This document shows positions 5,799 to 27,660 of a stretch of 64,000 bases of DNA, in pieces. How positions within the stretch are numbered: the stretch's first letter is position 1; each line of letters opens with the position of its first letter. Source of the DNA: Methyloversatilis universalis EHg5. GTDB taxonomy: Bacteria; Pseudomonadota; Gammaproteobacteria; Burkholderiales; Rhodocyclaceae. The DNA lies in NCBI RefSeq assembly GCF_000378945.1, contig NZ_KB900539.1:1251661-1315660 (forward strand), read 5' to 3'. Below the pieces are notes generated by a model, which was not told the DNA's origin, did not search any database, and saw only the letters and a list, made by a program, of their open reading frames with translations. A program made the translations under genes and the position numbers.

Positions 5799-6680
5799 TC
5801 AGCCGCGCTGTGCGCGACGGCGTGCGGCCAGGCCGATCAGGCCGAGCCCGGCCAGCATCAGCGCATAGGTTTCAGGTTCGGGCACCGGTGGGGTCGGCAC
5901 GAAACCGCCGATGAAGCCGCCGGCCGGCGACTGACCTTCTTCACCGGCCTGGAAGTAACCGATCGCCTTGTTGCCCAGCGTGTAGGCGGTGGCATTGGTC
6001 TTGACCAGGAACAGGCCGCTCCAGGGGTTCTCCTCGGATACGCTGAAGTCGCCGCGCTGCCGCACGGCGTCCGGGTCATAAGGCAGGCCCAGATTCGAGG
6101 TGGACGTCGACGATGTCGCGCCGGCCTGATACTGGCGCAGATCGCTGTCGGTCAGGAAGGTCCAGGCGGCCGCGGTCGAGTAGCCGGTAAAGCCGTACCG
6201 GTAGAGGAAATTCACCTCCTGATTGTTATCGACCAGGTTCAGGTAGCGGGTGCCGAACACCAGCGCGTTGTCACGGCTGTCGCGATAGACGAAGTCGTAG
6301 ATGGTCGCCTGCGGTTCGTCAGGCAGCAGCGGCACGCCGGTGGTGACACGCCAGTCCAGCAGCGTCAGCGTTCCGATTCCGGTGGTGATGCCGCCGCTGA
6401 CTGCCTTGTAGGCAATCTTCTCGGCGATCACATTACCCGAGCCCCTCAGCTCCGGATCTGCACTCCACTCGCGGTCATCGTCATATCCGGCAAGGTATTT
6501 CTTTGACTCGATGTCAAGATGGAGGCGATCCGCTGCGGGGTTGGTGGCGCCGTTGATCAGGCCGCCATTGCCCGGGGTGAGCGTGCTCAGGTTGGTCGGC
6601 AGCGAGAAGAAATCGCCTGCCTGCGCGCTGCCGGTGATCGCCATCAGGGCCAGCGACGCGGCGATGACAGTCTTTTTCAT
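5799..6680 (-). CDS. PEP-CTERM protein, paralogue A of a three-member family
   Basis: The start at 6680 (MKKTVIAAS) has a strong GGAGG ribosome site; the frame is open further upstream, but without a signal peptide there. The 293-residue product has a signal peptide ending SAQA, then GDFFSLP, and a C-terminal VPEPETYALM PEP-CTERM tail with RRRAQRG. Internal blocks YDFVYRDSRDN, LVFGTR, LYRYGF, EENPWSGLFLVKT and AIGYFQAGEEG recur in the products at 25767-26783 and, more divergently, at 26821-27594. It is exported and probably surface-sorted; biochemical function is unknown. A 19-bp palindrome lies 76 bases upstream of the start and resembles one before the TonB receptor at 23098. Confidence 0.8.
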   Translation of the reverse strand: MKKTVIAASLALMAITGSAQAGDFFSLPTNLSTLTPGNGGLINGATNPAADRLHLDIESKKYLAGYDDDREWSADPELRGSGNVIAEKIAYKAVSGGITTGIGTLTLLDWRVTTGVPLLPDEPQATIYDFVYRDSRDNALVFGTRYLNLVDNNQEVNFLYRYGFTGYSTAAAWTFLTDSDLRQYQAGATSSTSTSNLGLPYDPDAVRQRGDFSVSEENPWSGLFLVKTNATAYTLGNKAIGYFQAGEEGQSPAGGFIGGFVPTPPVPEPETYALMLAGLGLIGLAARRRAQRG

Positions 6681-6755
6681 GAGACCTCCGTGTATTTGAT
6701 GGGTGAAGCAATCGGGTGAGGGACAATCCATGCGGCGCTGCATGCCCTGCATGGA

Positions 6756-6774
6756 TGTAGGAAAAATTCCTACA
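6756..6774. promoter_or_regulatory. 19-bp perfect palindrome, putative operator (GTAGGA-N5-TCCTAC type)
   Basis: TGTAGGAA and TTCCTACA flank AAA in perfect dyad symmetry. It abuts another 8-bp inverted repeat (ATCCATGC at 6726-6733 and GCATGGAT at 6749-6756). The core GTAGGA-N5-TCCTAC is also found at 23071-23087 before the TonB receptor. It precedes the minus-strand PEP-CTERM gene. Confidence 0.55.
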
Positions 6775-6780
6775 CCCACC

Positions 6781-7325
6781 CTGCCGAATGCCCGACAGAT
6801 TTGACCCGGAAGGCCGGTGCGGAAACAGGGATGTTTTCCCGATTTTCAGGGGTCGGAGCTCGGCCACACGCCGTTCTGCGCGGACGGTCGACTGTCGGAA
6901 ACTTCCGTGGCGTTGCAACATCGGCAGCCGCATGCGGGCGACGGACCACAGGGGGCGTATTCCTTCGTGGTGCGCGGGCGGGTGCGCGCGTGCGTCGGCG
7001 AACGCGCGCAGCACGAGTGCGGGGAGGCGTAGGTGTGACGATTCGCTACGGGACGGTTTCCCGCAGGTGTTGACAGCCACTGCCGGTGCAGACGGAGGAT
7101 GACATCCGCGTGGTGATCGGGTAGCCGGCCTCGCGCGGCGGACTGACCGCGATCGCGCGGCCGGCTCTTTCATGCGCTCGGTTGCCTGGGCGACACACTG
7201 CGGAGGACACATCCGGCCTTACGCAGACGCAGTCCTCAAACGATGCCCTGTTGGCCGAAGGCGGCCGCTCCTGTCGCAGCCGCGCCGCTCGCGAGAACTG
7301 TCCTCGGCCGGATAGCGTCGAGTGC
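6781..7325. other. Long intergenic stretch without a supported gene
   Basis: Both flanking genes are transcribed leftward on the minus strand. Open frames here lack ribosome sites and family features. A long inverted repeat is visible: AGCCGGCC (7123-7130) with GGCCGGCT (7159-7166), with further CG-rich pairing inside and CTTT after it, so a structured RNA or transcript end is possible. I see no other supported element. Confidence 0.5.
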
Positions 7326-7332
7326 GAAAATG

Positions 7333-7356
7333 CCTGCCGACGCAGAAGTCGGCAGG
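7333..7356 (-). terminator. Intrinsic terminator of the cytochrome c operon
   Basis: A 9-bp stem, CCTGCCGAC with GTCGGCAGG, has a 6-base loop and is followed on the minus strand by CATTTTC. It lies ~85 bases after the stop of the triheme cytochrome gene. Confidence 0.6.
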
Positions 7357-7439
7357 CTGAGGCAGAAGAGCGACGCGCAAAGCGGCGTAGCCGCCCTTCT
7401 GTTGCCTGTCAGCGCCCGGCTGGCCCGGGCCTTAACGGC

Positions 7440-8708
7440 TCAGCGCAGGTTGCCGCGCAGCCGCTGCACGTCGACCGAACTGACCGGCGACGCGCTATTG
7501 CCCCAGCTGCCGCGGATGTGCGACACCACCATCGCGATGTCGTCATCGCTCAACGAGGCGGCGAACGGCGGCATGCCGTAGGGGCGCGGATTGCCGCGGG
7601 TGGCCGGCGCGTAGCCGCCGCCCAGCACGGTGCGGATGGCATTGGCCGGCGGGTCCATCGAAACCGCGCGGTTGCCGGCCAGAGCCGGCCACACGCCGGG
7701 CCGGCCTTCGCCGCGCTCGCCGTGGCAGTCGGCGCACTGGTCGGCGTACAGCTGCGCGCCGCGTTCGCGCCGCAGTTCGTCCTGCACGCCGGCGAAGTCG
7801 CTCTTCACCGGCCGGGTCTGCGGCAGCGCTTTCAGATAGACCGCCATCGCGTCCAGGTCGGCGGCCGACAGATGCTGGGTGCTGCCGAACACCACCTCGG
7901 CCATCGGGCCGGCAGCGGTCGCGTGCGGCGTCACGCCGTCACGCAGCAGCGCCACCACTTCGGCCTGTGGCCAGTCGGCGACCGATGCTTCATGCGGCGA
8001 GGCGAGCGACGGCGCGTACCAGTTCTGGCCCGGCATCAGGCCGCCGGCCAGCGCGTCCGGGTCGGTGCTGGCGCCCAGCGCATTGCGCGGCGCGTGGCAG
8101 GCGCTGCAGTGGCCCAGACCCTGCACCAGATAGGCGCCGCGGTTCCATTCGGCGGGCTTGCCGGCATCCGGCTGGAACACACCCGGCTTGAAATACAGCG
8201 TGCGCCAGGCCAGCAGCGCCGCCTGGGTGTCGTAGGGGAAGCGCAGCGCGTGCGTCCGGTTCGGCTGGTCGACCGCAGGCAGGGTCTGCAGCCAGGCGAA
8301 CAGTGCGTCGGCGTCGGCACGGGTGACGCGGGTGTAGTTCGTGTAGGGGAAAGCCGGGTAGAGCAGCCGGCCGTCGCGGCCGCGACCGTCGTGCAGCGCG
8401 TTCCAGAAATCGTCCGCCGACCACTGGCCGAGGCCGGTTTTCGCGTCGGACGTGAGATTGCTGGTGTAGAGGGTGCCGAAAGGCGTGTCCATCGCGCGGC
8501 CACCGGCGCCGGGTGTGCCGCCGGGCGCGGTGTGGCAGGCGAGGCAGTTGCCGGCCCGCGCCAGATATTCACCGCGCGCGACCAGGGCGGTCGGTTCATC
8601 CGTGGACGGCGAGGCGGGTGAGGTATCCGACGCCGGCTTCAGTGCGACATACACAGCGGTCGTGGCCAGCGCGGTGACGACGAGAACAGACAGGGCGAGA
8701 CGTTTCAT
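7440..8708 (-). CDS. Triheme cytochrome c, alcohol/aldehyde dehydrogenase electron-transfer subunit type
   Basis: The 422-residue protein has an N-terminal membrane anchor/signal (residues 1-22) and three CXXCH heme sites: CLACH (55-59), CSACH (201-205) and CADCH (325-329). Three-domain cytochromes of this size are the electron-accepting subunit of membrane alcohol, gluconate or aldehyde dehydrogenases (AdhB-like), passing electrons to quinone or oxidase. No dehydrogenase subunit is encoded beside it, so its partner is unknown. Its start overlaps the stop of the upstream c4-type cytochrome gene (ATGA), which implies translational coupling. The heme assignment is direct; the physiological role is inferred. 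Confidence 0.82.
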   Translation of the reverse strand: MKRLALSVLVVTALATTAVYVALKPASDTSPASPSTDEPTALVARGEYLARAGNCLACHTAPGGTPGAGGRAMDTPFGTLYTSNLTSDAKTGLGQWSADDFWNALHDGRGRDGRLLYPAFPYTNYTRVTRADADALFAWLQTLPAVDQPNRTHALRFPYDTQAALLAWRTLYFKPGVFQPDAGKPAEWNRGAYLVQGLGHCSACHAPRNALGASTDPDALAGGLMPGQNWYAPSLASPHEASVADWPQAEVVALLRDGVTPHATAAGPMAEVVFGSTQHLSAADLDAMAVYLKALPQTRPVKSDFAGVQDELRRERGAQLYADQCADCHGERGEGRPGVWPALAGNRAVSMDPPANAIRTVLGGGYAPATRGNPRPYGMPPFAASLSDDDIAMVVSHIRGSWGNSASPVSSVDVQRLRGNLR

Positions 8709-9424
8709 CGCGCGGCCTCCGTCACGCCACCGCAGCGTATCGGCAGCGGCTTTTCCAGCGCGGCGGCAGGCTTGCCGCCCAGGCTGACCGGTTGTGACGA
8801 CAGCCAGTGGGCCACCGACTGGATGTCTTCAGCGTTCAGCTTCCGCGCTACTTCAGCCATGCAGTCCGGTGCATGTGCATGGCGTATGCCGCTCTTCCAG
8901 CCGGCAAGCTGGGCGGCCAGATAGTCGTGCGGCAGGCCGAGCAGGCCGGGCAGGGCCGGCGCGACGCCGGTCAGTGCGCTGCCGTGGCAGCTGGCACAGG
9001 CCGGAATGTCGCGCGCCGGGTCGCCGTCGCGTACCAGCCGTTCGCCGTGCGCCAGCACCGCGGGCTTCTGCGTGCTGCGGGCAGGCGGCGGGTAGGGCAG
9101 GTCGAGCGCGGAGAAATGACGGGCGATTTCCTGCAGGTAATCGTCGGTCAGCGTCTGCAGCAGCCCGCTCATCAGCGGGTACTGGCGGCGGCCGTCGCGG
9201 AAGTTCACCAGCTGGTTGTACAGATAGCCGGCCGGCTTGCCGGCGATGCGCGGGTAGTAGCCGTCGGCCGCTGCGCGGCCTTCCGCGCCATGGCAGCCGG
9301 TACAGGCTTTCACCCGCAGATCGATGTCCGGGTGTTCGCCGGGGGCGGCGAAGGCGGTGGCGGCCGACAGCGCGAACAGACCGAACAGCGCGCGGGTGGT
9401 TAATGCGATGGAGATGCGGTTCAT
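8705..9424 (-). CDS. Diheme cytochrome c4-like protein
   Basis: I chose the ATG at 9424 (MNRISIAL) because it begins a clear Sec signal peptide ending FA-A at about residue 27; the long upstream frame has no such feature. The 239-residue product has two CXXCH sites, CTGCH (41-45) and CASCH (143-147), each heading a class I cytochrome domain, with PRIAGKPAGYLYNQL between them, a typical c4/c-class stretch. It is periplasmic and probably passes electrons to or from the triheme cytochrome encoded next. The stop overlaps the next start by four bases. Confidence 0.82.
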   Translation of the reverse strand: MNRISIALTTRALFGLFALSAATAFAAPGEHPDIDLRVKACTGCHGAEGRAAADGYYPRIAGKPAGYLYNQLVNFRDGRRQYPLMSGLLQTLTDDYLQEIARHFSALDLPYPPPARSTQKPAVLAHGERLVRDGDPARDIPACASCHGSALTGVAPALPGLLGLPHDYLAAQLAGWKSGIRHAHAPDCMAEVARKLNAEDIQSVAHWLSSQPVSLGGKPAAALEKPLPIRCGGVTEAAR

Positions 9425-9524
9425 GGCGAAGCGGGCAGCGTGAAGTCCGGCTGCATGATAAGCGCTGCCCGAGCCGGGGCGCCCGGACCGCCGGGTTATG
9501 AGCCGATGAGGCGCGCCACAGCGG

Positions 9525-10013
9525 TTACAGGCTGCGTATCTTGCGGAGCAGCGCGGTGGTCGACCGTTCGTGCTCGAAGGCGATGGATTCGACCCGCCCG
9601 CCGCGCGCCAGCACCTCGGTCGCGCCGACGATGCGCTCCACCGGCCAGTCACCACCCTTGACCAGCACGTCCGGCGTGCAGGCGTTGATGAGGTCGAGCG
9701 GCGTGTCGGCGTCGAACCAGGTGACCAGACTGACCGATTCCAGCGCGGCGATCACCGCGGCGCGGTCTTCCAGCGCATTGACCGGCCGGTCGTCGCCCTT
9801 GCCCTGGCGGTGCACCGACGCGTCGGTGTTCAGCGCGACGATGAGCGCGCCGCCCAGCGCCCGCGCCTGCGCGAGGCAGGTTACGTGGCCGCGATGCACG
9901 ATGTCGAAACAGCCGTTGGTGAACACCACCGGGCCGGGCAGCGCCGCGCGACGCGCCACGATTTCATCCGGCGGGCAGATCTTGGCTTCGAAAGCCGGCA
10001 GGCCGCCGCGCAT
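9525..10013 (-). CDS. rfaE2: D-glycero-beta-D-manno-heptose 1-phosphate adenylyltransferase (RfaE2-type)
   Basis: The 162-residue single-domain enzyme carries the nucleotidyltransferase signature FTNGCFDIVHRGHV, in which HRGH is the HxGH ATP-binding motif, and KGGDWPVERIVGA near the C-terminus. It transfers AMP from ATP to heptose 1-phosphate on the way to ADP-heptose for the lipopolysaccharide inner core. Only the C-terminal half of the E. coli HldE fusion is present, so the kinase must be encoded elsewhere. The ATG at 10013 overlaps the stop of the upstream ferritin-like gene by one base (TGATG), so the two are cotranslated. Confidence 0.88.
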   Translation of the reverse strand: MRGGLPAFEAKICPPDEIVARRAALPGPVVFTNGCFDIVHRGHVTCLAQARALGGALIVALNTDASVHRQGKGDDRPVNALEDRAAVIAALESVSLVTWFDADTPLDLINACTPDVLVKGGDWPVERIVGATEVLARGGRVESIAFEHERSTTALLRKIRSL

Positions 10014-10843
10014 CAGGCGGCGCCGGCGTACTGCTTGCGGAAGCGGTTCAGGTCGCCCACGGTCTTGAAGCTTTCGCCGAACAGCGAGCTCAGATTGCGC
10101 AGGATGCCGCCGATCACGCGGGCCTCGCAGTCCTTGTCGAAGCGGATCTGTTCGTCCAGCCAGCGCTCCAGCCATTCGGGGTCGGGCAGGCGCGACTGCA
10201 CCGTGTCGCGCGGAAAATGCGCCTTGCTCACGTGCAGATTGGTCGGATGCATCGGTTTGCCGGCACGGCCGCTGGCGGCCATCAGCATGCCGATCTTCGA
10301 GAACGCGGCGCGTGCGGCGTCGCCGGCCTGGTCGATCGCCCGCTTCATGTACTTCAGATAGGCGCCGCCGTGGCGGGCCTCGTCGCGCGACAGCAGATCG
10401 TAGATGTGCTTGATCACCGGTTCGGTATGCCAGTCGGACGCACGGCGGTACCACTGGGTCAGGCGCACCTCGCCGCAGAAGTGCAGCATCAGCGTTTCCA
10501 GCGCCGGCGCCGGGTCGAACTCGAAGCGCACCTCGTGCAGCTCGGCTTCGGTCGGCGCCAGGTCGGGGCGGAAGCGACGCAGGTATTCGATCAGCACCAG
10601 CGAGTGCTTCTGTTCCTCGTAGAACCAGATCGACATGAAGGCCGAGAAGTCGGAGTCGTCACGGTTGTCGCGCAGGAACATTTCGGTGGCCGGCAGCGCC
10701 GACCATTCGGTGATGGCGTTCATCTTCACCGTCATCGCCTGTTCGTCGGACAGCAGCGATGCGTCGAAACTGTCCCATGGCACGTCCTTGGCCATGTCCC
10801 AGCGTGCCGACTCCAGGGATTTGAACAGTTCGGGATAGAGCAT
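10013..10843 (-). CDS. Ferritin-like di-iron family protein
   Basis: The start at 10843 (MLYPELFKS) has an AAGGAG ribosome site; a longer frame exists, but its N-terminus does not resemble a protein. The 276-residue, mainly helical protein has EEQKH and DEARH motifs, the ExxH-type ligands of a carboxylate-bridged di-iron centre as in ferritin-like or acyl-ACP desaturase-like proteins. It lacks a signal peptide and is probably cytoplasmic. The substrate is unknown. Coupling to the heptose adenylyltransferase hints at an envelope or lipid A related oxygenation or desaturation, but that is only inference from position. Confidence 0.65.
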   Translation of the reverse strand: MLYPELFKSLESARWDMAKDVPWDSFDASLLSDEQAMTVKMNAITEWSALPATEMFLRDNRDDSDFSAFMSIWFYEEQKHSLVLIEYLRRFRPDLAPTEAELHEVRFEFDPAPALETLMLHFCGEVRLTQWYRRASDWHTEPVIKHIYDLLSRDEARHGGAYLKYMKRAIDQAGDAARAAFSKIGMLMAASGRAGKPMHPTNLHVSKAHFPRDTVQSRLPDPEWLERWLDEQIRFDKDCEARVIGGILRNLSSLFGESFKTVGDLNRFRKQYAGAA

Positions 10844-10979
10844 GAAGCGGCTCCTTGAGAAAAAAACATTGTACGCGAGCGAAAGACAGGCCGATGACAG
10901 CGCGCCGGTCGGCCCCGGAGCACTCATTCAAGCATGCGGCTGTGTCAGTTGATCGACGGAAAAGCGGCTTTGTGCCGGC

Positions 10980-11885
10980 TCAGTGGCGGCTGCGCCAGTC
11001 GGACACGGTGTCCGGCAGTTCGCCGATGTCTCGCATCAGCCGTATGCCCGGCTCTTCGCGCAAGCGCGCCGGTGCGCCGGCGCCGCCCACCCACAGCTCG
11101 ATGGAGGGCGGCAGCGTGGCGCGCAGCGTGCGCAGCCCGTCCAGTGCCTGACGGGCCGGAAAGGCGGCGCTGAAGGACAGCGCCACCACGTCGGCGGATG
11201 CGGTCTGCGCAGCCCGCACGATGTCGGTCACCGGCATGCGCGGACCGAGCGAGCAGCAGTGCGCGCCTTCGGCGGACAGCATGACTTCGGCCATCAGCAG
11301 GCCGAGTCCGTGTTCTTCTTCCGGCAAGGTGGTCAGCAGCACCCGCGGCGGCCTGCCCGGGCGCGGATAGCTGGCCAGGGCGCCGCGCAGGAAGGTCTGC
11401 AGCTGCTCGGTGTAGAAATGTTCGTCCGGCACGCCCAGTTCGCCGCGCAGCCAGGCTTCGCCGATGTCCACGTTCAGTGGCGCGATCAGGTCGGTGATCA
11501 GGCCTTTCAGCCCCTTTTCCAGCAGTGCGGCCTGGAAGCCGCGGCGCAGCGCCTCGACATCGTGCGCGCGCAGCGCGGCGACCAGCTCTCCGGACAGCAG
11601 CGTCGGGGCCCGGCGCGTGCGGTCGGCGGCGATCAGTGCGTCAAGTTCGTCGGCCGGCAGCGCCAGCAGCTTGCCTGGCCGCCAGCCCTGATCCATCAGC
11701 CGGCAGATCAGGCGCAGTCGATCGACCTGGTCACGCGGATAGAGCCGCTCGCCGGCCTCATCGCGTATCGGCGCGGGAAAGCCATAGCGCCTTTCCCACA
11801 CCCTCAGCGTGTCTTTCAGCAGACCGGTTTCGCGTTCCACGGCACCGATGGTCGACAGCGCCGGGCTCGAAGCAGTGGTATTCAT
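10980..11885 (-). CDS. litR: MerR-family regulator with B12-binding domain (LitR/CarH light sensor type)
   Basis: The 301-residue protein has an N-terminal MerR winged helix (STIGAVERETGL through the WERRYGFP recognition region, residues ~11-80), a helical bundle, and a C-terminal cobalamin-binding domain. The CarH photoreceptor hallmarks are present: Wx9EH (W145, E155, H156) and the lower-ligand ExHxxG (E190, H192, G195). Proteins of this type bind adenosylcobalamin in the dark as repressing oligomers and release DNA in light. It is divergent from a nine-gene operon whose lipid-modifying genes are classical LitR or ChrR/sigmaE targets. Two identical-arm palindromes lie in the intergenic region. 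The B12 role is strongly suggested but unproven here. Confidence 0.85.
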   Translation of the reverse strand: MNTTASSPALSTIGAVERETGLLKDTLRVWERRYGFPAPIRDEAGERLYPRDQVDRLRLICRLMDQGWRPGKLLALPADELDALIAADRTRRAPTLLSGELVAALRAHDVEALRRGFQAALLEKGLKGLITDLIAPLNVDIGEAWLRGELGVPDEHFYTEQLQTFLRGALASYPRPGRPPRVLLTTLPEEEHGLGLLMAEVMLSAEGAHCCSLGPRMPVTDIVRAAQTASADVVALSFSAAFPARQALDGLRTLRATLPPSIELWVGGAGAPARLREEPGIRLMRDIGELPDTVSDWRSRH

Positions 11886-11900
11886 TTTGTCCTGGACAAA
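11886..11900. promoter_or_regulatory. LitR-type operator 1
   Basis: TTTGTCC-T-GGACAAA is a perfect 15-bp palindrome directly at the regulator start codon (11885) and just upstream of the -35 box at 11904. Its arms are identical to those of operator 2, 63 bp away centre to centre. Confidence 0.65.
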
Positions 11901-11903
11901 TCG

Positions 11904-11932
11904 TTGACACGATCGCGCATGAGTCCTAGATT
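11904..11932 (+). promoter_or_regulatory. Sigma70 promoter of the LitR-controlled operon
   Basis: TTGACA (11904-11909), a 17-base spacer and TAGATT (11927-11932) form a near-consensus promoter between the two palindromes. The predicted start near 11940 places operator 2 just downstream of it, a repression layout. Confidence 0.7.
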
Positions 11933-11948
11933 ACGACTTGAGTCCTGT

Positions 11949-11963
11949 TTTGTCCAGGACAAA
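11949..11963. promoter_or_regulatory. LitR-type operator 2
   Basis: TTTGTCC-A-GGACAAA is a perfect palindrome with arms identical to operator 1. It lies between the predicted transcription start and the first gene of the operon, close to its ribosome site. Confidence 0.65.
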
Positions 11964-11976
11964 AAGGGAGGCAATC

Positions 11977-12249
11977 ATGAGAAAACACTGTGCCCGTTCC
12001 GTCCTCGGCCTGCTGGCTTGCGTGCTGGCCCCGGCCCTCCATGCGGTCATGCCTTCGGACGCCGAGCCCGCCGACCGGCAGCGCGCCGGTGCGCCGGGCG
12101 TGGATGCGCGCCCTGGCGACACGCGTGTCGGCGGCAATGACGAACTGATCCGTCTGCACCGCGCAGCCACCGGCATCAGCCCGCCGTCCGCCCCGGCCGG
12201 TGTGGAACCTGCGGCACTTTGCTGCGAGGTGAGCCGTGCGACGCGCTGA
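11977..12249 (+). CDS. Small exported protein, first gene of the LitR-type operon
   Basis: This 90-residue frame has an AGGGAGG ribosome site and an apparent Sec signal peptide (MRKHCARSVLGLLACVLAPA and following LHA). The mature part is short, polar and Pro/Arg/Ala-rich with two adjacent cysteines near the end (ALCCEV). I recognise no family. It overlaps the start of the glutathione peroxidase gene by 14 bases, so it could be a real small periplasmic protein or mainly a translated leader coupling ribosomes to the next gene. It lies directly behind operator 2. Confidence 0.55.
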   Translation: MRKHCARSVLGLLACVLAPALHAVMPSDAEPADRQRAGAPGVDARPGDTRVGGNDELIRLHRAATGISPPSAPAGVEPAALCCEVSRATR

Positions 12250-12793
12250 TCTTTTCCTGCTGACCGCCCTGGTGACGCTGATGACCTCTCTGACTGCCCA
12301 CGCGGCCGGCAACTGCCCGACGCTGCTGGACCGCAGCCTTCCCGGCCTGCTCGACGGCAAGCCCCGATCGCTGTGCGAATTCTCCGGCCGCGTGCTGCTG
12401 GTGGTGAATACCGCAAGCCGGTGCGGCTACACGAAACAGTACGCGGCGCTGGAAAAACTGCAGGAAACCTACGGCGCGCGCGGCCTGACCGTGCTCGGCT
12501 TTCCGTCCAACGATTTCGGCAACCAGGAGCCGGGCAGCAATAAGGACATCGCCGAGTTCTGCAGCATGACCTATGGCGTCAAGTTCCCGATGTTCGCCAA
12601 GACCGCCGTCCGGAGCGAGCCACGCGAGCCCTTCTACAGCGACCTGATCAAGGCGACCGGCTCGGCACCTGCCTGGAATTTTCACAAATACCTGATCGGC
12701 CGGGATGGCCGCAGCGTGTCGGCCTTCCCCAGCAATGTCGCGCCTGACTCGGACGTGCTGGTGCGCGAGATCGAGGCGGCGCTCGCGAAATAG
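12236..12793 (+). CDS. Exported glutathione peroxidase family protein
   Basis: The 185-residue protein starts at GTG 12236 after a GAGGTGA ribosome site and has a signal peptide ending AHAAG. The thioredoxin-fold peroxidase motifs are NTASRCGYT with the peroxidatic Cys, LGFPSNDFGNQEPG with the active-site Gln, and WNFHKYLI with the Trp/Asn. It reduces hydroperoxides with thioredoxin or glutathione. The signal peptide suggests a periplasmic site of action, where it could detoxify lipid peroxides. Its position in an operon of lipid-modifying genes under a putative B12 light sensor fits a photooxidative stress response. Confidence 0.83.
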   Translation: MRRADLFLLTALVTLMTSLTAHAAGNCPTLLDRSLPGLLDGKPRSLCEFSGRVLLVVNTASRCGYTKQYAALEKLQETYGARGLTVLGFPSNDFGNQEPGSNKDIAEFCSMTYGVKFPMFAKTAVRSEPREPFYSDLIKATGSAPAWNFHKYLIGRDGRSVSAFPSNVAPDSDVLVREIEAALAK

Positions 12794-12853
12794 GGCGGTC
12801 CGCTGCATCCGGATACGCCGTTTCCGGGTAGTGACCGACATCGGAGGTAGAAA

Positions 12854-19249: not shown

Positions 19250-19258
19250 GCGTGCGTG

Positions 19259-20746
19259 CTATCGCGTCAGACGCCGGGCGGCGATCACCACCGCGCTGAG
19301 CGATACCGCGATGCCGGCGAAGGCGGCCAGCCACATCAGGCTCCAGCGCAGTGCCGGGCGGGCCGAAAGCGCCGGAATCTCGAACGCATGCGGCGCGTTG
19401 AACAGCCAGCGGCGCAGCCGTGCGTCGCGGTCCATGGTGCCGAGCAGGCGGCCGTCCAGGGCGTCGATATGGACCCAGGTTTCGGCCGGATCTTCCATCT
19501 GCACCCGCCACACCGGCAGTTCCTTCGGATCGCGTCGGCCGTACCACCAGGCGTCTTCCGCGGTGAGCCGCTCGATCGCATTGATGCGCGCGTCCGGCAG
19601 CAGCGCACGCGCCACGGTTTCAGCGTGCTGTTCGGTCACGTCCGGGTGATCGAAACCAGGCAGGTCGAGCGCACGGCGGTAGCCTTCGCCATTGGTCAGC
19701 GTCATCCGCGCATGGCCATCCACCCAGTAAAGCTGGATGTCCTTCCAGCCGGTTTCGGACAGCAGTGCATCGAGCGTCGCGCGCTGCTGCGGCCACGGGA
19801 ATTCCGGCGCCACGCTGCCGGTGTAGCGGGCCATCGCCGCCTTGCCCGGCGGCGTGTTGCGCAGCCAGTCGCCGGGCGACATCGACAGCCAGCCGCTCAC
19901 CATCCAGGCCAGTACGAACAGGCCGCCGCCGAGTCCGGCCATGTGGTGCAGCTTCATCCAGCCGATGAAGGGGCTGAACGGCGACTGCCGGCGCAGACGC
20001 TGCAGGCCGAGCACCAGACCGCTCAGCGCGGACAGGCAGCAGATGCCGGACACCCACAGCAGGGTCTGACGCCACAGATCCGACTTCTCGCGCAGCGGCG
20101 TGAAGTAGAACCAGTGCGGCACCGCGCCCAGCCAGTTCCACAACCGCTCGCGCCGGCTGGTGTCGCGCACCACTTCACCGCTGCGTGCCGAAATGTACAG
20201 CTCGGTGCCGGCGGCATCGTCCAGCGCGATGCGGTGGAAGGGGCGCTGGCGGTCCAGCGTGGCGAGCACGGTCCACTGGTCGCGCTCCACGGTGCCGGTC
20301 CAGCGGGTGTGCAGTGCGCCAGCGAAGGCTCGGGCGATCGCTTCGGCGCGTGCCACGTCCACCGCGTCGATGCGGGTGCCGGTCTGCGCGCTCACGGTGT
20401 GCCGGCTGCCGTCGGCCAGCACCATGCGCCATACCGGCTCGCGACTGCCGTCTTCGCGCACCAGCGATTCCAGCCACAGCTTGCGCGGAAAATTGTGCGC
20501 ACCGGCGGCGCGCAGTGCGGCGTCCGGCGTCACCCGCAGCAGGCTGCCGTCGAGCGGCGCCAGTCCGCGCAGGCGCTCGGCGTCGGTCAGCGACGGGAAG
20601 CCGACCACGCTCATGACCAGGCCGGACAGGAACCACATCAGGAACAGCAGACAGCCGGCGATGCCCAGCCAGCGGTGCCCTGCGCGCAGGGTCTGGAACA
20701 GCCGCGCGAGCACGGTCTGGCGGGTGAGTGTGAAGGGCGGGAACAT
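19259..20746 (-). CDS. PepSY-domain membrane protein (PiuB/iron-uptake associated type)
   Basis: The start at 20746 overlaps the stop of the upstream gene (TGATG); a longer frame exists but would run through that gene. The 495-residue protein has the PepSY_TM layout: a first membrane helix at ~28-50 (WLGIAGCLLFLMWFLSGLVM), periplasmic PepSY-like repeats, helices around LLWVSGICCLSALSGLVLGL and GGGLFVLAWMVSGWLSM, and a C-terminal helix. Such proteins often accompany TonB receptors and act in siderophore or metal reduction at the inner membrane. Here the partner is a polytopic protein of unknown function. Confidence 0.75.
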   Translation of the reverse strand: MFPPFTLTRQTVLARLFQTLRAGHRWLGIAGCLLFLMWFLSGLVMSVVGFPSLTDAERLRGLAPLDGSLLRVTPDAALRAAGAHNFPRKLWLESLVREDGSREPVWRMVLADGSRHTVSAQTGTRIDAVDVARAEAIARAFAGALHTRWTGTVERDQWTVLATLDRQRPFHRIALDDAAGTELYISARSGEVVRDTSRRERLWNWLGAVPHWFYFTPLREKSDLWRQTLLWVSGICCLSALSGLVLGLQRLRRQSPFSPFIGWMKLHHMAGLGGGLFVLAWMVSGWLSMSPGDWLRNTPPGKAAMARYTGSVAPEFPWPQQRATLDALLSETGWKDIQLYWVDGHARMTLTNGEGYRRALDLPGFDHPDVTEQHAETVARALLPDARINAIERLTAEDAWWYGRRDPKELPVWRVQMEDPAETWVHIDALDGRLLGTMDRDARLRRWLFNAPHAFEIPALSARPALRWSLMWLAAFAGIAVSLSAVVIAARRLTR

Positions 20747-21390
20747 CACGCGGGCACCGCGCGCCGGCGCGGCCGCAGCGCAGTCAGCCAGTCCAGCATG
20801 CAGTAGAAGGCGCCGGCGGCCAGCGGCGGATTGGCAGACACCAGCGCCAGGCCGGGCACTTCGCTGCGCCAGGTCCAGGCGCCGAGCGCGGTGCCGTACA
20901 GCTCCATGCACAGCGCCAGTACGAACATGGTGGAGTACAGCCGCGGCGACGGGCCGTAGCGCAGCGCCAGCAGGTAGAGCGCGAACAGCGGCAGATTGGC
21001 GGTGTCGCCACCCACCGCGAGGCCGGCCAGCACCAGACCGGCAGCCAGCGGCGGCACCGCGTCGATGGCGCGATGTGGCAGCCGGTCGGCCAGCCATACA
21101 CCCAGCGCGTACAGCAGCACATGGCCCGGCGGCACGAACAGCGGCAGATTGCCCAGCCGGTAGTCGTACAGGCCCCACAGCAGCGACAGCACGATTTCGC
21201 CGAAGGTGGCCCAGGCCAGGCACACGGTCCATTGCATGCGCTGGTCCGCGTGGCCTGACCACCACATGAAGCCGAACAGCAGCCAGGTCCACAGCGCGAC
21301 CGCCGGCTGCGCCCAGGCCAGACCGCAGGCGTCCAGCCACAGGCCGCCGGCGATGGTCAGTGCGGTGGCGAGGGCGAGCGGGGCGTTCAT
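20746..21390 (-). CDS. Polytopic inner-membrane protein of unknown function
   Basis: The 214-residue protein is almost entirely hydrophobic, with about seven membrane segments separated by short loops (for example [19 protein letters not shown] and [16 protein letters not shown]). I do not recognise the family. It is translationally coupled to the PepSY protein encoded downstream (TGATG), so the two probably function together in the inner membrane. It is divergent from aroC, with ~90 bases between starts that must hold both promoters. Confidence 0.7.
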
Positions 21391-21478
21391 GGGGGCGGGG
21401 CGCAGTCAGGCGGGGCGGCGGAAGGCCGCAGGGGCCTGCATGGTAAACTCACGGGCTCGAAAAATCGCGGGTTTTCCC

Positions 21479-22651
21479 ATGTCCGGCAATACTCTGGGCA
21501 CGCTGTTCCGTGTCACGTCCTTCGGTGAATCGCATGGCCCGGCCATCGGCTGCGTGGTCGATGGCTGCCCGCCCGGGCTGAAGCTCGACGCGGCCGACAT
21601 CCAGGCCGAACTGGACCGCCGCAAGCCGGGTACCTCGCGCCACGTGACCCAGCGTCGCGAACCGGACGAGGTGGAAATCCTGTCCGGCGTGTTCGAAGGC
21701 GTCACCACCGGTACGCCGATCGGCCTGCTCATCCGCAACCAGGACCAGCGCTCGAAGGACTACGGCAACATCGCCGAAACCTTCCGCCCGGGCCATGCCG
21801 ACTACGCCTACTGGCAGAAGTACGGCATCCGCGACCACCGCGGCGGCGGTCGTTCGTCCGCACGCGAAACCGCGGTGCGGGTGGCGGCCGGCGCGATCGC
21901 GCGCAAGTGGCTGCGCGAGCGCTACGGCATCGACATCCACGGCTGGATGAGCCAGCTCGGCCCGATCCGCATCGAGTACCGCGACCGCGACGCGATCGCG
22001 AACAACCCCTTCTTCGCGCCGGACGTCAGCGTGCTGCCGGAACTCGAACTGTTCATGGACAAGCTGCGCAAGTCCGGCGATTCCTGCGGCGCGCGCATCG
22101 ACGTGGTCGCCAGCGGCGTGCCGGTGGGCTGGGGCGAGCCGGTGTACGACCGGCTCGACGCCGACATCGCCTACGCGATGATGGGCATCAATGCGGTCAA
22201 GGGCGTCGAGGTCGGCGCCGGCTTCGCCAGCGTCGAACAGCGCGGCACCGAACATTCGGACGAAATGTCGCCGGAAGGCTTCCTGTCGAACAACGCCGGC
22301 GGCGTGCTGGGCGGCATTTCGACCGGCCAGGACCTGCGCGTGTCCATCGCCATCAAGCCCACGTCCAGCATCCGGCTGGACCGGCATTCGATCGACAAGG
22401 CCGGCAATCCGGTCATCGTGAACACCCACGGCCGGCACGACCCCTGCGTCGGCATCCGCGCGACACCGGTGGCCGAAGCCATGCTGGCCCTGGTGCTGAT
22501 CGACCACGCGCTGCGCCACCGTGCGCAGTGCGGCGACGTCGAGGTGGCCACGCCGCGCATCCCGGCGCAGGCGCCGGCAGAGGTGGTGGAGCGGCTGCGC
22601 GCCGCCCGCGACGCCGAACAGGCCGACGCGCAGGCCGACGAACAGGACTGA
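21479..22651 (+). CDS. aroC: Chorismate synthase
   Basis: The 390-residue enzyme converts 5-enolpyruvylshikimate 3-phosphate to chorismate with reduced FMN, the last common step to aromatic amino acids. Signatures are [18 protein letters not shown] near the N-terminus, [20 protein letters not shown], and [16 protein letters not shown] near the end. The ATG at 21479 gives the usual [11 protein letters not shown] start; the longer upstream frame lacks conservation. The C-terminus carries a ~20-residue acidic Ala/Asp/Gln-rich extension. No other aromatic gene is adjacent. Confidence 0.96.
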
Positions 22652-23070
22652 GTCGCTGCGACGGGCGGTTGCGGCCAGCGGCCGTACCGCCTGCCTGTCG
22701 CGAGCCCGCTCTGCTTCCGTTCCTTTTCTTCCTTTCCCCCAGCTTTCCCCTCCACCTGACGGCCGCTGATGTCTGCCGTCCCGGGCCCGGCTGACCCGTT
22801 TGCGCCTGCTCGCGCGGCCTGCCTGAAAGATATTCGTCACCCTGTGCGGGGCTTGGCCGGAACCGGGCGGAAGCGCTCGGCCGGTACGCGATACGGCGCG
22901 TGCTCGCCATCCGGTTCATGCATGCAGGATGGGGTGGCCGGCAGTCGATGCGCGCGGAATGTGCGTACAGGACGGGAAATTTTCCCTGCGTGAATTTATC
23001 GGGAGGATTTCCCTGTGTCCGCTGGCCCTGTGCCCAGTACAACTCGCGGAAACAAACTGCCCGTGGTCGT
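22652..23070. other. Intergenic region between aroC and the TonB receptor
   Basis: No supported gene is visible. Near the receptor end there is a GGGAAA-T-TTTCCC palindrome (around 22976-22988) and a similar GGGAGGATTTCCC about 20 bases further on. These may be regulatory or promoter elements of the receptor gene. The putative operator at 23071 follows. Confidence 0.4.
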
Positions 23071-23087
23071 GTAGGAATCTGTCCTAC
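23071..23087. promoter_or_regulatory. Putative operator GTAGGA-N5-TCCTAC before the TonB receptor
   Basis: An interrupted palindrome with 6-bp arms and a 5-base spacer ends 10 bases before the receptor start codon, where a bound protein would also block the ribosome site. The same core and spacing occurs at 6757-6773 upstream of a PEP-CTERM gene paralogous to the one following this receptor. Confidence 0.5.
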
Positions 23088-23097
23088 CCGGAATCCG

Positions 23098-25710
23098 ATG
23101 AAGAGGCTCGACAAGCGAGGAGGGGCGGCGTGCTTCGTGCCCGCCCTGGTGCTGCTCTGCGGCGGCGCCAATGCACAGGAAAAGACCGAGGTGCGCCTGG
23201 AGGAAGTCAACATCCGGGCGCCGCGCATCGTCACGCCTCTGCCAGGCGTGAGCATGGAGCGCGAGCAGACGACGGTGAACGTTCAGAGCGCGACCGACGC
23301 CGATCTGCGCAACCAGCAGTCGATCAACATCGCCGACTACCTCAACACGCAGGGCCAGTCGATCACCGTCAACGACTACGCCGGCAACCCTTTCCAGCAG
23401 GACATCAGTTTCCGCGGCTTCTCCGCCTCGCCGCTGGTGGGTACGCCACAGGGCCTGTCGGTGTATCTCGACGGCGTGCGGGTAAACGAGCCCTTCGGCG
23501 AAGTGGTGAACTGGGATCTGATTCCGACGCTGGCGATTTCCCGCACCGATCTCATCCCGGGTTCCAATCCGCTGTTCGGTCTGAATACGCTGGGCGGCGC
23601 GCTGTCGCTGCAGACCAAATCCGGCTTCACGTCGGAGCGCTTCGAAGCCACCCGTACCCAGGGTTCGTGGGGGCGCAGCCAGAACCAGCTGGCGGTCGGC
23701 GGCAACAACGGCACGCTGGCCGGCTTCGTTGCCTTGAGCGAATTCCGGGAGGATGGCTGGCGCAACAATTCGCCCAGTCAGGTGAACCAGTATTTCGGCC
23801 GCATCGACGCGCGCATCGGTGCCAGCGAATGGACCGCCTCGCTGCTCAAGGTGGACAACAGGCTGACCGGCAATGGCCTTGTGCCCTACGAGGAATGGCA
23901 GGCCCGCCCTCAGTCGGTGTTTACCTCGCCGGACACCACGGACAATGATCTCACCCACGTCAATCTGCGCGCCCGTTTCGACGTCAGCGACCGGGACAGC
24001 GTGTCGGTGGGCGTGTATCAGCGCAAGCTCACCCAGCGCTCGGTGGGTGGCGACTTCTGGGACGATTTTGACCGTCTGTCCTACGGCCGGCTGGACGACT
24101 GCCCGCTGAGCCATTTTCCCTTCGTGTCCGCCAACGGCGCCTACGATCCGAACGGTCCGACCTCGCCCGGCTGCCCGGGCTTCGCGCCGAACGGCCTGTT
24201 CAACATCGGCGGCACTTCGCAGGAAGCGATCGGTACCACGGTGCAGTGGGTGCATGTCGGTGACGAACACCAGCTGGTGTTCGGCGGCACCTTCGACCGC
24301 AACGACCTCAGCTACGGTCAGGGCCAGATGCTGGGCTTCATCGATGCCGACCGGAATGTGTACACCGATCCGGCCAAGGCGGCGGATCTCGGCCTGTCGG
24401 CGCTGGACACGGTGATCCAGCGCAACTTCCTGACCGGCAGCAACGAATCGCTCGCCTTCTTCGCGACCGATACCTGGACCGTGCGCGACAACCTGTTCGT
24501 GAACTACGGCCTGCGCTGGAGCCGTACCCACGTGCGCAATCAGCTGGTGTCGGACAAGCCGATTCCGCTCTACCAGTTCACACCGGCCTTTCTCAACAGC
24601 CGTCAGCAGCGTTGCGGCACGCTGGCCGATGCGGCGGCGCGCTTCCTGTGCTCCGAAGGCGATTACACCTACTACAGCACCAACCCGTCCTTCGGCGTGT
24701 CCTGGCTGCCGGAACCGGCGCTCAACCTGTACCTGAACGTGAGCCAGGGTGCGCGTACGCCGTCGGTGATCGAACTGGGCTGTGCGCGCGACAAGGAACT
24801 GGAGAACGCGAACAACGGCAAGAGCATCGGCTGTTCGGTGCCGACCGCGCTGACCAGCGATCCCTATCTGCCACAGGTGCGTTCGCTGAGTACCGAACTG
24901 GGCGTGCGCGGTTCAGCCTATGACGGAAAGCTGGAATTCAACGCCACCATGTTCGAAACCCAGCTCGAGGACGACATCCTGTTCGTGTCGCTGGGCCGCA
25001 AGAACCGCGGCGTGTTCGACACCTTCAAGCACACCTCCCGCCGCGGCTTTGAACTGGGCCTGAATGCCAAGGTCGGGGCGCACACCTTCCGCATCGCCTA
25101 CACCCGGCTGGACGCCAAATTCGGCTCCTACGCCAAGGTGGTGAACCAGTCCAACAGCAGTTCGAACAGCACCGCCGGCCAGCTGAACGAATTCACGATC
25201 GAACCGGGCGACCGCATACCCGGCATACCGCGCGATGTGCTGCGCATGGGCTGGGCCTTCGACGTGAACGACAGGATGAATGTCGGCATCAACATGATTG
25301 CCCACGCCGGGTCGTTCTCGCGCGGCAACGAGAACAACGAGCACCAGGCGGGTGGTGACGACAATTTCGGCGAGTCCTTCGGCGGCGGTGCCAACGGCCT
25401 CGGGCGTGCCTACATCGGCAGGGGCCGTACCTCCGGCTACGCCATCTTCAACTTCGTCGGCCGCTATCGCATCACCCGCGACCTGACGCTCTTCGCACGC
25501 GTCGACAACATTTTCGACAAGCAGTACCTGACCGCCAGCGAACTCGAACTGAACCCTTTCGTCGCCGGCGGCTTCGGTGGCCGCGATGCGTCCGGCTTCA
25601 ACTACAACTCGTTCGCATGGACCCACTCCCAGTTCGTCGGCCCCGGCTCGCCGCGCGCTGGCTGGTTCGGGCTGACCTACGCCTTCGACACGGTCGCGTC
25701 CGTGCAGTGA
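23098..25710 (+). CDS. TonB-dependent outer-membrane receptor
   Basis: The 870-residue protein starts at ATG 23098 (MKRLDKRGG) with a signal peptide ending ANAQ; the upstream open frame has no conserved features. The plug domain (~25-175) contains the segments LNTQGQSITVNDYAG, SVYLDGVRVNEPFGEVVNWDLIP and NPLFGLNTLGGALS. The rest is a 22-strand-type barrel ending with a C-terminal aromatic-rich strand. It imports a large ligand across the outer membrane using TonB. The ligand is unknown: no siderophore, B12 or sugar genes adjoin it. Two PEP-CTERM genes follow directly (57 bases), suggesting one operon. Confidence 0.88.
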   Translation: MKRLDKRGGAACFVPALVLLCGGANAQEKTEVRLEEVNIRAPRIVTPLPGVSMEREQTTVNVQSATDADLRNQQSINIADYLNTQGQSITVNDYAGNPFQQDISFRGFSASPLVGTPQGLSVYLDGVRVNEPFGEVVNWDLIPTLAISRTDLIPGSNPLFGLNTLGGALSLQTKSGFTSERFEATRTQGSWGRSQNQLAVGGNNGTLAGFVALSEFREDGWRNNSPSQVNQYFGRIDARIGASEWTASLLKVDNRLTGNGLVPYEEWQARPQSVFTSPDTTDNDLTHVNLRARFDVSDRDSVSVGVYQRKLTQRSVGGDFWDDFDRLSYGRLDDCPLSHFPFVSANGAYDPNGPTSPGCPGFAPNGLFNIGGTSQEAIGTTVQWVHVGDEHQLVFGGTFDRNDLSYGQGQMLGFIDADRNVYTDPAKAADLGLSALDTVIQRNFLTGSNESLAFFATDTWTVRDNLFVNYGLRWSRTHVRNQLVSDKPIPLYQFTPAFLNSRQQRCGTLADAAARFLCSEGDYTYYSTNPSFGVSWLPEPALNLYLNVSQGARTPSVIELGCARDKELENANNGKSIGCSVPTALTSDPYLPQVRSLSTELGVRGSAYDGKLEFNATMFETQLEDDILFVSLGRKNRGVFDTFKHTSRRGFELGLNAKVGAHTFRIAYTRLDAKFGSYAKVVNQSNSSSNSTAGQLNEFTIEPGDRIPGIPRDVLRMGWAFDVNDRMNVGINMIAHAGSFSRGNENNEHQAGGDDNFGESFGGGANGLGRAYIGRGRTSGYAIFNFVGRYRITRDLTLFARVDNIFDKQYLTASELELNPFVAGGFGGRDASGFNYNSFAWTHSQFVGPGSPRAGWFGLTYAFDTVASVQ

Positions 25711-25766
25711 ACGCCTTCTTCGATCCCATTCAAGCCGCACGAGTGCAGTCCACCCGAGGAGAGTCC

Positions 25767-26783
25767 ATGATGAAACTCAGATACCGTAGCCTGGCCGTGC
25801 TGTTCGCGGCCACGGCCCTGCCAGCCCACGCCGGCGACTTCACCAGCCTGCTGTACGGCACCGGCCCTGGCGCCGACCTGAAGTGGGGAACCGCCGATGA
25901 CACCAACGCGGTCGGCGCCGGTCCGGATCGCGTCCTCGGCACGGCGGACGACACGACGGCCAAGGTGTCCGGCGCGGGTAATGTGCAGGGCGACAAGCTT
26001 TACCTGAAGGTACCGGATGCACGGGCCGCTACGGCGACGACACCCGCCTACAAGCCCATCCTTTACAGCAGCGAGAACGGCAAGATACCGCTGGCTATCG
26101 ATTACTTCGCAACCGAATGGCGCACCCAGGCCGGGGTGCCTGCGCGCGGCACGCACACCGCACAGGGCACGCTCACGCTGGTGGATTCACACGTCACGTT
26201 CGGCGCCTCTCTCGGAGGCGTTGCCATCGGCGATGTCTACGATTTCGTGTTCCGTGACTCGCGCGACAACACGCTGGTGTTCGGTACCCGGGTCGAACTG
26301 GGGCAGAAACCGACCTACGATCAGGACGCGGAACTGAACTACCTCTACCGCTACGGTTTCGTCGAAGGCAGCACCGTGTTCAAGACCGATATTGCCTGGA
26401 CCTTCCTCGGCAACACCGATCTGCGGCTGTACAACGCGGCCCGCGCTGACCTGCGCAGCCTGATCGGCACGCCGACGCTGAACCTGAACGCAGTGAGCTT
26501 CCAGTCCGACATCAATCTGTCGGAAGGCAACCCGTTCAGCGGTCTGTACCTGATCAAGACCGATGCCACCGCCTACAAGACCATGGCCGGCGCGATCGGC
26601 TATTTCCAGGCCGGCGAGGAAGGGCAGGCACTGCTCTACAACACGATCGCCGGCTTTGCACCGACCGTACCGCCGCCGGTCGTGGTGCCCAATCTGCCAG
26701 TGCCGGAACCGTCTGAATACGCACTGTTCCTCGCCGGTCTGGGGTTGATCGGCGTGGCCGCGCGCCGTCGCCTGCGTGCCTGA
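25767..26783 (+). CDS. PEP-CTERM protein, paralogue B, with GTADD repeats
   Basis: The 338-residue protein starts at ATG 25767 after CGAGGAGA (ATG 25770 is an alternative), has a signal peptide ending AHAG and begins GDFTSLL like paralogue A. An N-terminal insertion holds two repeats, LKWGTADDT and RVLGTADDT, separated by a PNAxG-like stretch; such Asp-rich loops resemble calcium-binding repeats. The family blocks YDFVFRDSRDN, LVFGTR, LYRYGF, GNPFSGLYLIKT and AIGYFQAGEEG follow. The tail is VPEPSEYALFL, a hydrophobic helix and RRRLRA. It is exported and sorted; function unknown. It lies between the TonB receptor and paralogue C. Confidence 0.8.
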   Translation: MMKLRYRSLAVLFAATALPAHAGDFTSLLYGTGPGADLKWGTADDTNAVGAGPDRVLGTADDTTAKVSGAGNVQGDKLYLKVPDARAATATTPAYKPILYSSENGKIPLAIDYFATEWRTQAGVPARGTHTAQGTLTLVDSHVTFGASLGGVAIGDVYDFVFRDSRDNTLVFGTRVELGQKPTYDQDAELNYLYRYGFVEGSTVFKTDIAWTFLGNTDLRLYNAARADLRSLIGTPTLNLNAVSFQSDINLSEGNPFSGLYLIKTDATAYKTMAGAIGYFQAGEEGQALLYNTIAGFAPTVPPPVVVPNLPVPEPSEYALFLAGLGLIGVAARRRLRA

Positions 26784-26820
26784 ATCCACAGCCTTCCCTG
26801 CATACACACCAGAGGTCAGC

Positions 26821-27594
26821 ATGAAACTCAAAGCACTTGCCTTCTCGCTGCTGCTGGGCCTGTCGGCCCAGTCCGCATACGCCTTCGTCTCCCTGCCGGA
26901 GACCGGCCCGCTGCGCATCACCGGCAGCAACAATCCGGCGGCTGATCCGCTCTTCCTGGGCTTTGACTGGAATCCGGCGGACAACGGCTACACCCGTGTC
27001 GCCCGCCGCATCAGTTCGGTCATCTATGACGGCACCGACATCGGCACCTTCTACGATTTCGTCTATCGCTACACCGATGGCACGCTGGCGTTCGCGTCGC
27101 GTTTCGAACTGGACGTGGGCGAAATCGACACCGGCGCCTTCGCCTACGAAACCGAAATCAACGACATCCTGCGTCGCGGCTATGCCGGCTACGACGTGTC
27201 GGTTGGCTGGTACGACTCGGGTACCGACAGCGACATGCGCCTGCAGAGCGTGGCGCACTCGAATGGCGTGCGCACCCGCCCGACCAATCCGGTCGATGTG
27301 TTCGACGACAACGTGGTGGATTTCCGTACCGACGTTTCGGTCGAGGAAGAGAACCCGACGACGGCCTGGTACGTGCTGAAAACCAACGCGACCGAATTCA
27401 CCTATCTGGTCGATGCGGTCACCATCCGGCAGGCGCCGAGCCTCGATGGCGTTTCGCCGCCGCTGCGTGTCGCCACCTTCGAAGGTTTTGCACCGGTCAC
27501 CGCGCCGGTGCCGGAACCTGAAACCTATGCGCTGCTGCTGGCCGGTCTGGGCATGGTGGGTCTGGCGGCCCGCCGTCGCAAGCAGCCCAACTGA
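26821..27594 (+). CDS. PEP-CTERM protein, paralogue C
   Basis: The 257-residue protein starts at ATG 26821 after an AGAGG ribosome site, with a signal peptide (MKLKALAFSLLLGLSAQSAY) and a PEP-CTERM tail VPEPETYALLL followed by RRRKQPN. It is a divergent and shorter member of the family: NPAADPLFLGF resembles NPAADRLHLDI of paralogue A, then YDFVYRYTDG, LAFASRFEL, LRRGYAGY and EENPTTAWYVLKTNATEF align with the shared blocks, but the GYFQAGEEG block is lost. It is the last gene before a strong terminator. Confidence 0.78.
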   Translation: MKLKALAFSLLLGLSAQSAYAFVSLPETGPLRITGSNNPAADPLFLGFDWNPADNGYTRVARRISSVIYDGTDIGTFYDFVYRYTDGTLAFASRFELDVGEIDTGAFAYETEINDILRRGYAGYDVSVGWYDSGTDSDMRLQSVAHSNGVRTRPTNPVDVFDDNVVDFRTDVSVEEENPTTAWYVLKTNATEFTYLVDAVTIRQAPSLDGVSPPLRVATFEGFAPVTAPVPEPETYALLLAGLGMVGLAARRRKQPN

Positions 27595-27631: not shown

Positions 27632-27660
27632 GAGCCGGGCCTGTGCCCGGCTCTTTTTTT
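27632..27660 (+). terminator. Intrinsic terminator of the TonB receptor/PEP-CTERM operon
   Basis: GAGCCGGGC (27632-27640) pairs with GCCCGGCTC (27645-27653) around a CTGT loop and is followed by seven T's. Confidence 0.9.

Follow-up and report, generated by a model that had tools for sequence, protein, structure and literature searches.

What do proteins with exosortase-type sorting tails do when their genes sit next to that of an outer membrane receptor? This question is raised by a 64,000-nucleotide stretch of the genome of Methyloversatilis universalis EHg5 (contig NZ_KB900539.1, positions 1,251,661 to 1,315,660; hereafter the window), in which two PEP-CTERM proteins are encoded directly downstream of a TonB-dependent receptor and a third lies at a separate locus. 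An initial annotation had grouped the three into a family by shared sequence blocks, had set them apart from two further PEP-CTERM proteins of the window and had proposed an exported surface system coupled to uptake. Using profile searches, gene-neighborhood comparisons and structure prediction we confirm that the three proteins constitute a real homologous family that was previously undescribed, and we show that its genes accompany a single clade of receptors. We also propose, tentatively and with less than even confidence, that they are exosortase-sorted partners of a receptor importing a cofactor for the pyrroloquinoline quinone (PQQ) dependent alcohol dehydrogenases, a lanthanide being the best candidate.

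A novel family of PEP-CTERM proteins

The PEP-CTERM tail (Pfam PF07589), comprising the PEP motif, a hydrophobic stretch and a basic end, was recovered above cut-off in all three proteins (members 1 to 3; Table 1). Their signal peptides, read directly, end in AQA-GDF, AHA-GDF and AYA-FVS, and none has a lipobox cysteine. The core of the family, with the tail removed, matches no Pfam or NCBIfam model, and the profile built from it reached no well-characterized domain, which agrees with the initial annotation in finding no described family for these proteins. Likewise, the separation from the other two PEP-CTERM proteins of the window was upheld, as neither of these shows similarity to the family cores. 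The FxDxF PEP-CTERM model NF038126 does score member 3 at 51.8 (cut-off 50) over residues 153-289, a region that includes the tail, with members 1 and 2 at 34.4 and 44.7; however, it matched none of 35 tail-less family cores. A literature search outside bioRxiv and most subscription papers yielded no description of the family or of its pairing with a receptor.

A model of the mature core of member 3, computed from an input of 35 sequences, has a predicted local distance difference test score (pLDDT) of 96.2 and a predicted template modeling score (pTM) of 0.93. It is all beta and lacks any helix of four or more residues. Fold searches recovered nothing at E ≤0.001 in the PDB (Foldseek; best E 0.04, TM 0.15) or in a viral library; given the lack of a PDB match, the fold is either new or beyond the reach of Foldseek. 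Examination of the conservation pattern revealed ten invariant residues (F3, D30, D108, E134, N136, R140, W152, D190, E195 and Q223), the polar ones being of the types D, E, N, R and Q, and no histidine or cysteine among the columns kept in at least 28 of the 35 members. This combination of invariant D/E/N/R/Q residues without a conserved histidine or cysteine would suit the binding of a hard cation.

Pairing with one clade of TonB-dependent receptors

A single profile scan of genome contigs recovered 25 loci with one to three family genes each. Seventeen of these are from records with methylotroph names (Methylobacillus 2, Methylophilus 5, Methylophilaceae 2, Methyloversatilis 6 and Methylococcaceae 2) and the remaining eight from records named at the level of phylum, class or order. 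Leaving aside three loci with too short an upstream sequence (L022, L029, L039), each of the other 22 has a receptor gene homologous to that of the window as its next neighbor upstream on the same strand, with a gap of 32 to 633 base pairs (bp) for the chosen start codons; in two of them (L040, L041) the contig, or a single frame, covers only part of the receptor. As several loci come from the same genus, these 22 are not independent cases. In a draw of 399 genomes within the order, a 35-row profile detected the family in 16 at E 1e-6 (weakly in G501 and G576) and a receptor profile at E 1e-100 matched 59. A receptor match was present in 15 of the 16 family genomes, the exception being the 64 % complete G778. 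Conversely, all 12 genomes with a receptor above 700 bits, some of which also contributed to the 25 loci (e.g. G412, the source of L018), encode a family gene within 655 bp of it; in G698 two family genes stand ahead of the receptor. A class-wide draw with a three-row profile, weaker than the later 35-row one, gave family matches in 3 genomes out of 369, EHg5 itself among them, the other two each having one divergent locus (L010, L011) and one tandem (L013, L014). The co-occurrence with a receptor that the initial annotation had raised is thus found well outside the window. That a family gene adjoins one receptor type in methanol-using bacteria and their relatives suggests that these proteins assist the receptor in acquiring a nutrient, perhaps a rare-earth metal.

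In a tree of 36 receptors, for which the program warned of long branches, the 21 full-length family-linked receptors group together (89/84); with a receptor from G403 (L110) added, the clade numbers 22 (95/100) and is separate from that of PqqU and two of its relatives. The structure model of the window's receptor was poor (mean pLDDT 58.4) and was not used.

The initial annotation had also raised co-occurrence with an exosortase, and this was observed as a direct linkage in Methylobacillus arboreus. There the module is followed by genes for a PEP-CTERM-linked CAAX-type protease, EpsL, a glucose phosphotransferase, EpsD, EpsE, EpsF, EpsG, exosortase B (415.6 bits against a cut-off of 275) and EpsI, all scoring above their NCBIfam cut-offs. 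Nowhere is the module more clearly tied physically to an exosortase than in this cluster, seen in a relative.

As to the arrangement of the family genes, homologues of the second-type PEP-CTERM protein that adjoins member 3 (Table 1) also adjoin family genes in L017, L020, L024, L027 and L029. In the close relative represented by L017, the receptor, member 1, member 3 and this homologue stand in a single row, on account of which the two loci of the window may derive from one split locus. The description of the family as occupying two distant loci accordingly holds for the window but not for this relative.

Restriction to genomes with PQQ alcohol dehydrogenases

PQQ alcohol dehydrogenases (TIGR03075) were found above cut-off in 95 of the 399 genomes of the order-level draw, and these 95 include every one of the 16 genomes with the family and of the 59 with the receptor, the latter spanning 29 genera (Fisher p 4e-11 and 9e-46 respectively, with kinship ignored). 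With the thresholds applied, none of the 304 genomes lacking the enzyme gave a family match. For comparison, the dehydrogenase is above cut-off in 60 of the 369 genomes of the class-wide draw. For the 25 named records, 19 genomes were examined; the enzyme is above cut-off in 17 of them and gives some match in 18. This restriction narrows the range of ligands to be considered for the receptor.

Among the 47 genomes with weaker receptor matches, the receptor lies within 12 kilobases (kb) of a PQQ dehydrogenase in at least 15. The linked enzymes of 14 of these 15 genomes were inspected: in 11 at least one bears the motif WD[YF]DG, the last aspartate of which we take to be the mark of a lanthanide-type dehydrogenase, and those of three could not be typed. 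In one locus (L109:1668-11187, genome G739) a lanthanide-type PQQ dehydrogenase gene is accompanied by two adjoining receptor genes, one for a relative of PqqU and one belonging to the wider clade, an arrangement that would fit the parallel import of PQQ and a second cofactor.

A palindrome shared with flhDC

The 17-bp palindrome GTAGGA-N5-TCCTAC occurs in three exact copies in the EHg5 genome, as against one for the backwards control. The three precede the receptor operon, the minus-strand operon with member 3, and flhDC, in the last case about 126 bp 5' of flhD (L064:506-1517, C1:3014270; FlhD and FlhC were identified by Pfam). In eight relatives we found 11 palindromes, distributed over six genomes, against four control sites; three lie before the receptor, five before flhDC (in five of the eight relatives) and three elsewhere. 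Of the last, that of L072 is by a gene for a ShlB/FhaC-type two-partner secretion transporter, that of L076 by a LuxR-type response regulator, and that of L077 resembles L076. A VPEP-ended protein encoded near the L076 palindrome was considered and set aside, having no match to the Pfam PEP-CTERM model.

Across the family loci, an exact palindrome is situated 27-35 bp 5' of the receptor start in L034, L037 and L038, a one-mismatch version 27-29 bp 5' of it in L017, L032, L033, L035 and L036, and another one-mismatch version farther upstream in L020. We infer that the palindrome is an operator read by a regulator of the NarL/FixJ type, as its half-site is, we presume, like the sites of such regulators, e.g. 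BvgA and RcsB. A paralogue of the receptor in the EHg5 genome (L053:10077-12329) adjoins a two-gene set encoding a histidine kinase (HisKA_3) and a response regulator of the LuxR type; the latter (within L053:10077-14171, C1 about 928.6-932.7 kb) might be the regulator that reads the palindrome. In the Methylophilus-type loci L023-L028, the 200 bp 5' of the receptor instead contain, by eye, repeated GGTTNATTGCAGCC-like and GGCTGTAAA elements in the palindrome's place, and a different regulator is possible there.

Proposed role of the module and its alternatives

In the scheme that we tentatively favor, Sec would export the three proteins, an exosortase would recognize their PEP-CTERM tails, and the mature all-beta domains would come to lie on or outside the outer membrane. 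At that site they might retain a ligand or offer it to the TonB-dependent receptor next to them. The receptor would then bring this ligand, for which a lanthanide ion or lanthanide chelate is the best candidate, into the periplasm, the workplace of the PQQ alcohol dehydrogenases. In the lineage of the window, a regulator of the NarL/FixJ kind would switch both the module and flagellar motility by means of the common palindrome. Thus, of the uptake-coupled surface system put forward in the initial annotation, the family and its coupling to one receptor clade are borne out, whereas surface location, receptor contact and ligand are what we infer.

Surface proteins encoded beside their TonB receptors are familiar from SusD and TbpB. 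These are lipoproteins, while the members of the present family, though likewise receptor-adjacent, lack a lipobox cysteine and carry exosortase-type tails. A closer precedent is ZepA of Anabaena and other bacteria, which the accessible text of its report describes as an extracellular PEP-CTERM protein for zinc supply, with a metal hand-over to an outer membrane receptor proposed by its authors (PMC10957091). Like the family, ZepA combines a Sec signal with a PEP-CTERM tail and has a confident model of its mature part, and its gene neighborhood includes TonB transporters and further PEP-CTERM genes (PMC10957091). As a tested case of a PEP-CTERM exoprotein in metal supply it lends support to a metal-uptake role. 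By the same description, however, ZepA has conserved putative zinc-binding residues including histidine (PMC10957091), while the family is devoid of conserved histidine or cysteine, and its pairing is unlike that of the family, which is near strict with one receptor clade. Zinc scavenging as in ZepA was accordingly considered and is disfavored. The TonB receptors for lanthanides in methylotrophs, LutH and LanA, share the proposed cargo, and the portion of the source at hand does not mention a PEP-CTERM partner for them (PMC12482762). In another methylotroph, strain RH AL1, motility was reportedly reduced by lanthanides, as were the flagellar genes and those for TonB-ABC uptake (PMC10848612), which is in line with one palindrome standing before both flhDC and the receptor operon.

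Several observations weigh against the role in cofactor import. The family is absent from 79 of the 95 genomes with a PQQ dehydrogenase, and among the genomes of the named records G387, a 2.1-Mb assembly, has no match to the enzyme and G383 none above cut-off. The dehydrogenases linked to receptors sit by other receptors and not by the family's own. Moreover, three of these loci (L101, L104, L105) also encode a WDFSG enzyme, which in L105 is the nearer to the receptor. Typing of dehydrogenases (57 typed out of 78 sequences, with L190 from the receptor-less G778 placed on the receptor-less side) showed the lanthanide-type aspartate in 18 of 19 enzymes without a receptor and 34 of 38 with one; given this equal frequency, WD[YF]DG does not favor a lanthanide over PQQ or another cofactor. 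For Methylophilus, Methylobacillus, L019, L030 and L031, no palindrome was recovered from the 260 bp 5' of the receptor. Finally, the flhDC palindrome and the polysaccharide cluster fit a role in adhesion or matrix formation equally well, and this makes such a role a serious rival, if on balance a somewhat improbable one. Here the PEP-CTERM proteins would be structural, as adhesins or parts of a biofilm or polysaccharide matrix under a motile-sessile switch, with the receptor co-regulated for an unrelated cargo. The recurrence of the flhDC palindrome in relatives, the neighbors of the L072 and L076 copies, the position of the M. arboreus operon ahead of the exosortase B polysaccharide cluster and the general tie of PEP-CTERM proteins to exopolysaccharide, credited to an earlier study (PMC1569441), all speak for it. 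However, the family has stayed with a single receptor clade through changes of gene order (tandem, divergent and inverted), and a restriction to genomes with PQQ dehydrogenases is not expected of general matrix proteins.

The other alternatives concern the cargo. One is that PQQ itself, and not a metal, is what the receptor scavenges with its partners, as suggested by the likeness of the plug and by pqqC neighbors: the closest solved structures by profile, mainly via the plug, are those of PqqU (YncD), the PQQ receptor of E. coli (6v81, 9c4o), and pqqC lies about 1.6 kb 3' of the family genes, on the opposite strand, in four of six Methyloversatilis loci (L032, L033, L035, L036). It would also account for the restriction to genomes with PQQ enzymes, and the arginine at PqqU position 536 is retained in all 21 family-linked receptors. 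Nevertheless, the window's receptor is only about 21 % identical to PqqU, whose E. coli gene, unlike that of the family's receptor, has no PEP-CTERM partner, and it reaches 87.7 bits against the 1200-bit cut-off of the PqqU equivalog model. The PqqU recognition signature, an aromatic residue at 99 with R304 and R365 according to the accessible text (PMC12124388), is replaced by V, L and D in the window's receptor; across the 21 it is kept in 0, 0 and 2 cases respectively, the columns being uncertain in an alignment at about 20 % identity. By contrast, another PqqU relative of the EHg5 genome (C1:2232418-2234502; 557.7 bits, likewise under the cut-off) preserves F99, R304 and R365. Moreover, the pqqC link is seen in a single genus, and pqqC carriers probably synthesize PQQ themselves. 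After the signature test we therefore hold PQQ import to be quite improbable; a lanthanide is preferred because PqqU relatives are separate genes, one of them beside the wider-clade receptor of L109, and because several carboxylates are among the invariant residues. A further alternative is a different metal complex (of iron, as in a ferric siderophore, or of copper or calcium), with the link to PQQ dehydrogenases reflecting lineage only. Characterized TonB receptors are mostly carriers of iron complexes, the barrel end shows weak matches to copper, heme and siderophore receptors, and few clades hold the family, so that the statistics are not independent. The nesting of all 59 receptor genomes across 29 genera, together with the repeated linkage of related receptors to a dehydrogenase, argues against such a cargo, which we consider unlikely.

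Returning to the lanthanide, a fuller version of the favored scheme would be a cell-surface capture system in which beta-domain proteins with carboxylate sites feed a dedicated TonB receptor, and motility is co-switched for a rare-earth search when the metal is scarce. In this complete form it is unlikely; if true, it would be the outer-surface counterpart of lanmodulin and LanPepSY, with exosortase sorting in the service of nutrient uptake. As PEP-CTERM families are known mainly via exopolysaccharide, a receptor-locked family offers a concrete case where such sorting may serve this purpose, and the operon is a candidate for outer-membrane lanthanide gathering in the Methylophilus and Methyloversatilis groups.

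Features of the window

The coordinates of the two loci are collected in Table 1. The receptor start was picked for its signal peptide, the open frame extending from 22900. Terminator-like hairpins in the region number four, against 3.6 expected from shuffles.

Table 1. Components of the receptor operon and of the member 3 locus (window positions)
Feature	Position	Strand	Remarks
TonB-dependent receptor, 870 aa	23098..25710	+	Pfam plug and barrel; start at ATG 23098; upstream neighbor of family genes in relatives
Family member 1, PEP-CTERM protein, 338 aa	25767..26783	+	extra N-terminal stretch with two GTADD repeats
Family member 2, PEP-CTERM protein, 257 aa	26821..27594	+	
Family member 3, PEP-CTERM protein, 293 aa	5799..6680	-	
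PEP-CTERM protein of second type	4894..5727	-	71 bp 3' of member 3
GTAGGA-N5-TCCTAC palindrome	23071..23087	.	proposed operator; ends 10 bp 5' of receptor ATG
GTAGGA-N5-TCCTAC palindrome	6757..6773	.	proposed operator; 76 bp 5' of member 3 ATG
Terminator-like hairpin	27632..27653	+	3' of receptor operon; 9 pairs, 7 T

Cyclic di-guanosine monophosphate (c-di-GMP) riboswitches have been reported before PqqA, TonB receptor and PEP-CTERM genes in Methylophaga (PMC12530212). An Rfam scan of six sources (the window, L018, L019, L020, L023 and L030) recovered two tRNAs alone above thresholds and none of these riboswitches. The remaining PEP-CTERM protein of the window (51447-52334, minus strand) belongs to the DUF4394 family. 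The extra stretch of member 1 is encoded at 25850-25980; we take its GTADD repeats to resemble calcium-binding repeats, and similar stretches are found in L017 and L038.

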